Below, in pieces: positions 20,110 through 38,065 of a stretch of DNA of 62,833 bases. The notes below the pieces were generated by a model. The model saw only the letters and a list, made by a program, of their open reading frames with translations, made no database searches and was not told the DNA's origin. A program made the translations under genes and the position numbers. Within the stretch, counting starts at the first letter, position 1; every line of letters starts with the position of its first letter. Source of the stretch: Desulfurococcaceae archaeon. Its GTDB lineage: Archaea > Thermoproteota > Thermoprotei_A > Sulfolobales > Desulfurococcaceae. Where the stretch lies: positions 1 to 62,833 of the forward strand of contig JAJHQS010000004.1 of the NCBI GenBank assembly GCA_020833225.1, in the 5' to 3' direction.

Positions 20110-20556
20110 TTACACTATTACTACGGAATCTATGTCAAAATGCCTTTTAAGTATTAATTTCGCCCTCTGCACGTTTCTACCTCCTTTACCAATAGCTATG
20201 GCCTTGTCTTTTGGATCAACAGCCACGTAGAGGACTTTTGAGCCGTCAGGTCTATTAACAAGCTTAACACTATTAACTCTAGCTGGCATTAAGGCGTATT
20301 TTACTTGTTCTTCTAAATTACTACTATAACCTATAATTTCAATATTCTTATTCAATAGGTCCTTCAATTTCTGCACAATAAAACCCCGAGGTCCTATAGC
20401 CTTTCTAACTTCACTAGGATCTACTAGAAATATTATTCTATTATTCTCGTTTTCAATAATACAGTCCCTTACCGTGGCTCCTGTTAAATCACTAAATAAG
20501 GCCATATACCTGAACTCTTCAGGCGTTATTTTAACGTTCGGTTTAGTCTTACTCAG
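20110..20556 (-). CDS. nusA: NusA-like KH-domain protein, apparent CTG start
   Basis: Archaeal NusA-like protein with two KH domains ([12 protein letters not shown] and [13 protein letters not shown]) that binds RNA, found between L30e and S12 as usual. From ATG 20505 it has 131 residues, but the same frame continues upstream for 17 codons that encode a typical NusA N-terminus ([18 protein letters not shown]). There is no ATG, GTG or TTG in that extension. A CTG at 20556 lies exactly 7 bases after GAGGTG, the spacing used by neighbouring genes, so I infer a CTG start (148 residues, 8-base overlap with L30e). Confidence 0.8.
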
Positions 20557-20875
20557 AAACGCTCACCTCTGTAGCTAGATCTAATATGTTCGATTGCCCA
20601 GGATCTATAATAGCTAGAACAGATACACTATGAGGTCTTCCAATAATAGCTCCGAGCTCTATGTTTGTACCATCAAACACTATGATAGGTATATTACCTA
20701 GTTTTGCATAGTATTCTAAGTCTCTCTTCACCTCTGGTGGAGTATTCTTAGCTATTACAACTAATTTCACGTTTCCACGTAATACTAGTTTTACTACTCT
20801 GCGCACACCATACTCTATACTTCCTGTCCTCGCAGCTAATTGAAGAGCTCTAATCAGTTCTGGTTTCAAGGCCAC
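20549..20875 (-). CDS. rpl30e: 50S ribosomal protein L30e
   Basis: A 108-residue member of the L7Ae/L30e fold (LVLRGNVKLVVIAKNTPPE, YYAKLGNIPIIVFDGTN). The GTG start directly follows the RpoA2 stop with GGTGA upstream. Its stop overlaps the start I propose for nusA. Confidence 0.94.
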   Translation of the reverse strand: MALKPELIRALQLAARTGSIEYGVRRVVKLVLRGNVKLVVIAKNTPPEVKRDLEYYAKLGNIPIIVFDGTNIELGAIIGRPHSVSVLAIIDPGQSNILDLATEVSVSE

Positions 20876-37783: not shown

Positions 37784-38029
37784 CTAAGCCCTCTTCTCTT
37801 TAATACACAATATTGCTTTCTTCAAGATCTCTATGAGATATCCTTCTTCACCTGGAACACCTTTACCAATAAGTTCGCCATTTACTAGTAGTTCTGGGTC
37901 TTCACTACTACCATCTAGAACTTCTATTTCAATTCTCTCTCCTATTTCATATTCTAAAATATCCCTGATCTCTAGTAGCCATAAGTATAGTGTGTGTCTC
38001 CAATAGTTGCTTCTACCACGCACTATCAC
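37784..38029 (-). CDS. small conserved-looking hypothetical protein
   Basis: Eighty-one residues that I do not recognise. Basic, aromatic N-terminus (RGRSNYWRHTLYLWLLEI), then a segment that reads like a thioredoxin- or ubiquitin-like fold (ELLVNGELIGKGVPGEEGY), but with no CxxC. A single Cys lies near the C-terminus. GTG start at 38029, with another GTG two codons on. It lies between btpA and glmS on the same strand. Confidence 0.55.
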   Translation of the reverse strand: MIVRGRSNYWRHTLYLWLLEIRDILEYEIGERIEIEVLDGSSEDPELLVNGELIGKGVPGEEGYLIEILKKAILCIKEKRA

Positions 38030-38065
38030 TACAACCAGGATCCCTCACCATATCTCCGCAAGATA

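Follow-up and report, generated by a model that had tools for sequence, protein, structure and literature searches.

A probable CTG start of nusA in a Desulfurococcaceae archaeon and the apparent use of CUG as a minor fourth start codon

The nusA locus

The DNA stretch analysed here (the window) comprises 62,833 nucleotides of a hyperthermophilic Desulfurococcaceae archaeon (genome G000). It harbours on the reverse strand rpl30e, directly followed by a gene for an archaeal NusA-like factor, of which the stop and the first codons overlap (Table 1). The nusA frame (20110-20562) is open from just after TGA 20563-20565 down to its stop at 20110, and its first canonical start codon is an ATG at 20505. 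The first-pass annotation of this DNA had placed the nusA start further upstream, at a CTG, and had described 19 open codons before the ATG and a GAGGTG at 20564-20569 ending 7 bases before the CTG. Both observations were reproduced: exactly 19 codons separate the TGA from the ATG, and the 7 bases equal a spacing of 6 when counted, as throughout this study, from the A of GGTGA. The proposal that the CTG is the sole possible initiator holds for NTG codons, as no other NTG is found among the 19 codons, but ATA 20527-20529 and ACG 20524-20526 also lie in frame. These two codons were rejected as start sites; neither has a spaced Shine-Dalgarno (SD) sequence and neither position is used as a start in relatives.

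Table 1 Features of the window discussed in the text (positions of the whole stretch)
Feature	Position	Strand	Remarks
nusA (archaeal NusA-like factor, TIGR01952), read from CTG, 148 aa	20110..20556	-	profile and structure matches
CTG, probable start codon of nusA	20554..20556	-	homologous to ATG/GTG/TTG of relatives; CTG in sister G001 (L002 = L031)
Shine-Dalgarno GAGGTGA of nusA	20563..20569	-	spacing 6 to CTG
Internal ATG of nusA frame	20503..20505	-	first canonical start, without spaced SD; rejected as main start
rpl30e (L30e)	20549..20875	-	TAA 20549-20551 inside first nusA codons; 8-base overlap
84-aa ORF, second apparent CTG-start gene of window	37784..38038	-	genus-conserved, no Pfam match
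CTG, apparent start of 84-aa ORF	38036..38038	-	aligns with GTG in G001, TTG in G005
Shine-Dalgarno GGTGA of 84-aa ORF	38045..38049	-	spacing 6 to CTG 38038

The sequence preceding the nusA CTG has the properties of an SD-led start. GAGGTGA is a complement to the tail of the 16S rRNA, and its spacing of 6 is the modal spacing of the genome, found in 80 of the approximately 240 first canonical starts that have an SD of 5 bp or more in the genome survey described below. The predicted duplex of 7 bp has a stacking energy of -14.4 kcal/mol, which is matched or exceeded by just 6 % of the SD-supported starts. No properly spaced SD was found for ATG 20505, which has just AGGT at spacing 0. The protein read from the CTG matches the TIGR01952 model over positions 2-141 of 141 with 157.9 bits (curated cut-off 74.35), compared to 146.0 bits without the extension, a gain of 12 bits. 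The solved structure of NusA from Aeropyrum pernix (2cxc) aligns to the protein from residue 8, thus covering the extension. With its full-length family match and its place after rpl30e, the gene resembles other archaeal nusA genes (TIGR01952; 2CXC) and differs from them in start codon only.

Start position of nusA in relatives

A nusA gene was found in 60 of the 61 genomes searched, and the best 30 of these were read at sequence level, 29 of which are relatives. An additional 17 nusA loci from a public collection are mostly repeats of these 30. The one genome without a nusA match, G047, belongs to the same order and is rated 99 % complete.

As proposed in the first-pass annotation, the nusA starts of relatives were compared. 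In all 29 relatives read, nusA starts 17-20 codons upstream of the position to which the internal ATG aligns, and none of them needs this ATG as start; a start at the internal ATG in relatives, which would have spoken against the CTG, was thus not encountered. The start codons are mostly GTG or ATG and in a few cases TTG, while sister genome G001 has CTG. In nearly all of these relatives the start is preceded by an SD, is followed by an AGY codon and lies within approximately 10 bases of the rpl30e stop. The relatives also keep the ITPEEFRYM motif of the extension. In genus g6 (L009, L011, L017) nusA begins with ATG AGT AAG, with an SD at spacing 6 and the rpl30e TAA at +5. This arrangement is identical to that of the window, the start codon differing in its first base only.

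G001 is 84 % identical and was assembled separately. Its nusA has CTG AGC at the homologous place with AGGTGA at spacing 6. A GTG is located two codons before this CTG, but the SD abuts that GTG directly (spacing 0). The rpl30e stop of the window is absent from G001, where L30e runs further into nusA to a stop at +17, while the CTG remains. The start of nusA at CTG 20554-20556 is well supported by these comparisons, as the start position in relatives, the CTG of G001, the gain in profile score by the extension and the coverage by 2cxc all agree, and it is considered very probable.

Apparent CTG starts in the genome and in the family

The first-pass annotation had treated the CTG start of nusA as an isolated oddity. 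This view did not survive a survey of 931,938 bases including the window (64 % of the assembly, sampled in stretches) with 835 ORFs of 100 aa or more; it did not extend to the last part of the genome, to most of G001 or to outgroup genomes. In genes of which the ATG, GTG or TTG start lacks an SD, it was counted for each codon how often an SD of 5 bp or more precedes it at spacing 5-7. This was the case for 10 of 59 in-frame CTG codons compared to 109 of 8,335 other codons (Fisher p = 8e-9), and in the same gene set for 2 of 533 CTA, CTC and CTT codons together. At spacing 6 alone the numbers are 7/59 and 29/8,335, respectively; every other spacing gave 0-2 in-frame CTG codons with an SD, and out-of-frame CTG showed no comparable SD excess in the survey by single spacing. 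As an SD was the selection criterion for all candidates, the survey is silent on whether an SD is required. SD-supported canonical starts were found for 568 genes (185 GTG, 192 TTG and 191 ATG), which puts the share of CTG among SD-led starts at approximately 1.0 % when the six survey cases supported by relatives are counted and at 1.7 % for all ten.

Protein names of the CTG genes were assigned by family matching. In G001 four genes retain the CTG, namely nusA and the genes for an M24 peptidase, a metallophosphoesterase and a DUF1616 protein. In the M24 peptidase gene (L069:17109-18224) the first ATG, GTG or TTG follows 242 codons after the CTG, and several relatives have TTG at the same start position. 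In the metallophosphoesterase gene (L061:19477) no NTG other than the CTG precedes the first canonical start; most relatives have ATG at the CTG position, and CTG is found not only in G001 but also in G032 of genus g6. The DUF1616 gene (L092:3630) carries GAGGTGAT at spacing 6, G001 having CTG with GAGGTG, G003, G004 and G006 having ATG and G005 having TTG. The CTG of an aldo/keto reductase gene (L069:7340) corresponds to TTG in G001; in the other congeners the start is found one codon earlier. For an NMNAT-like nucleotidyltransferase (L091:2245) six relatives have TTG at the same codon; in the present genome the CTG is preceded by two GTG codons at a distance of 3-4 codons. The window itself harbours a further case, an ORF too short for inclusion in the survey (Table 1). 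Besides nusA, at least six genes of this genome, among them one that may have another start, thus appear to start at CTG. Because nusA and these genes appear to share this start, CTG seems to serve the genome regularly as a minor fourth start codon, accounting for approximately 1-2 % of SD-led starts.

Four of the ten survey candidates are without confirmation from relatives. L066 and L067 have canonical alternatives nearby; L116:5277 and the substrate-binding protein L127:4683 are candidates compatible with a CTG start. ACG with a well-spaced SD was seen near the head of three long ORFs, all on the reverse strand (L238:7895, L052:12402 and L122:12144), or 3 of 41 ACG codons in this genome; these could be ACG starts or chance occurrences.

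The trait is evident in this genome and its sister G001; other members of the family probably have it as well, at a lower rate. The CTG excess is weak in congener G005 (4/81, p = 0.02) and no significant excess was found in G032 (2/93). Two cases in G032, L203 and L230:17055, are plausible CTG starts, and relatives of the latter align with it from codon 1 or 2 onwards. CUG is probably a minor fourth start codon in G001 and in a neighbouring genus as well, on less evidence than in G000.

Proposed initiation at CUG and alternative explanations

The most probable explanation (approximately 90 %) is that nusA is translated from CUG by the initiator Met-tRNA, directed by a strong SD, as one case of a genome-wide minor use of CUG. 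The codon, the SD and its spacing, the homology of the start, its recurrence and its conservation in the sister species are directly observed parts of this explanation. Pairing of the anti-SD of 16S rRNA with GAGGTGA would place the CUG in the P site, ribosomes would initiate there, and the strong SD would make up for the weak codon. The single initiator tRNA seen in the 64 % of the genome read (L069:13932-14006) has a CAT anticodon, the GGG/CCC stem and an A1-U72 pair; no initiator tRNA with a changed anticodon or a lost GGG/CCC stem was found in this part. The initiator tRNA being ordinary, a changed decoder is not indicated, and Met-tRNAi (anticodon CAU) would have to read CUG despite a C-U mismatch at its first base, something that the bacterial initiator does weakly. 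As the ordinary Met-tRNAi is proposed to tolerate this mismatch, NusA would still start with methionine. Initiation by a leucyl initiator, with these proteins beginning with leucine, has a reported precedent in a study on antigen presentation in mammalian cells (PMC524250). In the present genome it is very improbable, since, in the 64 % read, the tRNA with CAG is a tRNA-Leu of the ordinary long-arm type and CAU is the anticodon of the sole initiator-type tRNA.

A start at ATG 20505, leaving the upstream part untranslated, would use the first canonical codon of the frame, and the short form still scores above the TIGR01952 cut-off. Such a start has hardly any probability left, in view of the missing spaced SD, the start position and the conserved ITPEEFRYM of the relatives, and the loss of conserved residues to which the solved A. 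pernix NusA aligns. Least probable of all is that the true codon is GTG or TTG and that the CTG arose by faulty sequencing or assembly. The genomes are drafts and relatives carry GTG, TTG or ATG at the nusA start, but random errors would not cluster on initiation codons with an SD spacing of 6, nor produce CTG at the same codon of four different genes in a separately assembled sister. Somewhat more credit, though still little, is given to the explanation that translation of nusA depends mainly on coupling, ribosomes that end at the rpl30e stop 20549-20551 reinitiating at the adjoining CUG with the SD being less important. The overlap of the two genes and the short distance between them in nearly all relatives agree with this; the shift of the stop to +17 in G001 while the CTG stays, and the strong SD kept in both species, do not. 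Coupling to rpl30e may supplement SD pairing instead of taking its place. More speculatively, start-codon selection in this branch of the Desulfurococcaceae could have become relaxed, with CUG and perhaps ACG as regular, maintained starts, looser initiation factors or ribosomes leaving the decision to the SD, and possibly with the role of keeping chosen proteins at a low dose; this broader proposal is regarded as tentative.

Archaeal GUG and UUG starts are similar to the CTG cases described here in their SD lead, spacing and homologous position, but differ in the first base. With C at this position initiation in bacteria is far lower: in E. coli CUG has just 0.86 % of the activity of AUG, and CUG makes up 0.024 % of bacterial starts (PMC11497404). 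Start switches to CUG have also been recorded in bacteria and archaea, in 2 of 61,358 AUG, 1 of 5,080 GUG and 1 of 2,468 UUG ancestors (Belinky et al. 2017; PMC5622118). With 4 switches in approximately 69,000 ancestral starts, a change to CUG is very rare in curated start sets, but these sets rest on annotation in which CTG is seldom allowed. In contrast, at least 6 apparent CUG starts stand against approximately 570 SD-supported canonical starts in the single genome studied here, and four genes share CTG between two species. The search of the open-access literature, from which most subscription journals were absent, yielded no report of CUG starts recurring in crenarchaea.

The set of putative natural CUG starts with matched ATG, GTG and TTG orthologues makes the tolerance of the archaeal ribosome for a first-position C testable. 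Gene callers usually accept ATG, GTG and TTG only and would therefore shorten or miss 1-2 % of the genes in these archaea, among them nusA. Under standard gene calling the M24 peptidase would lose 242 residues, or be missed.
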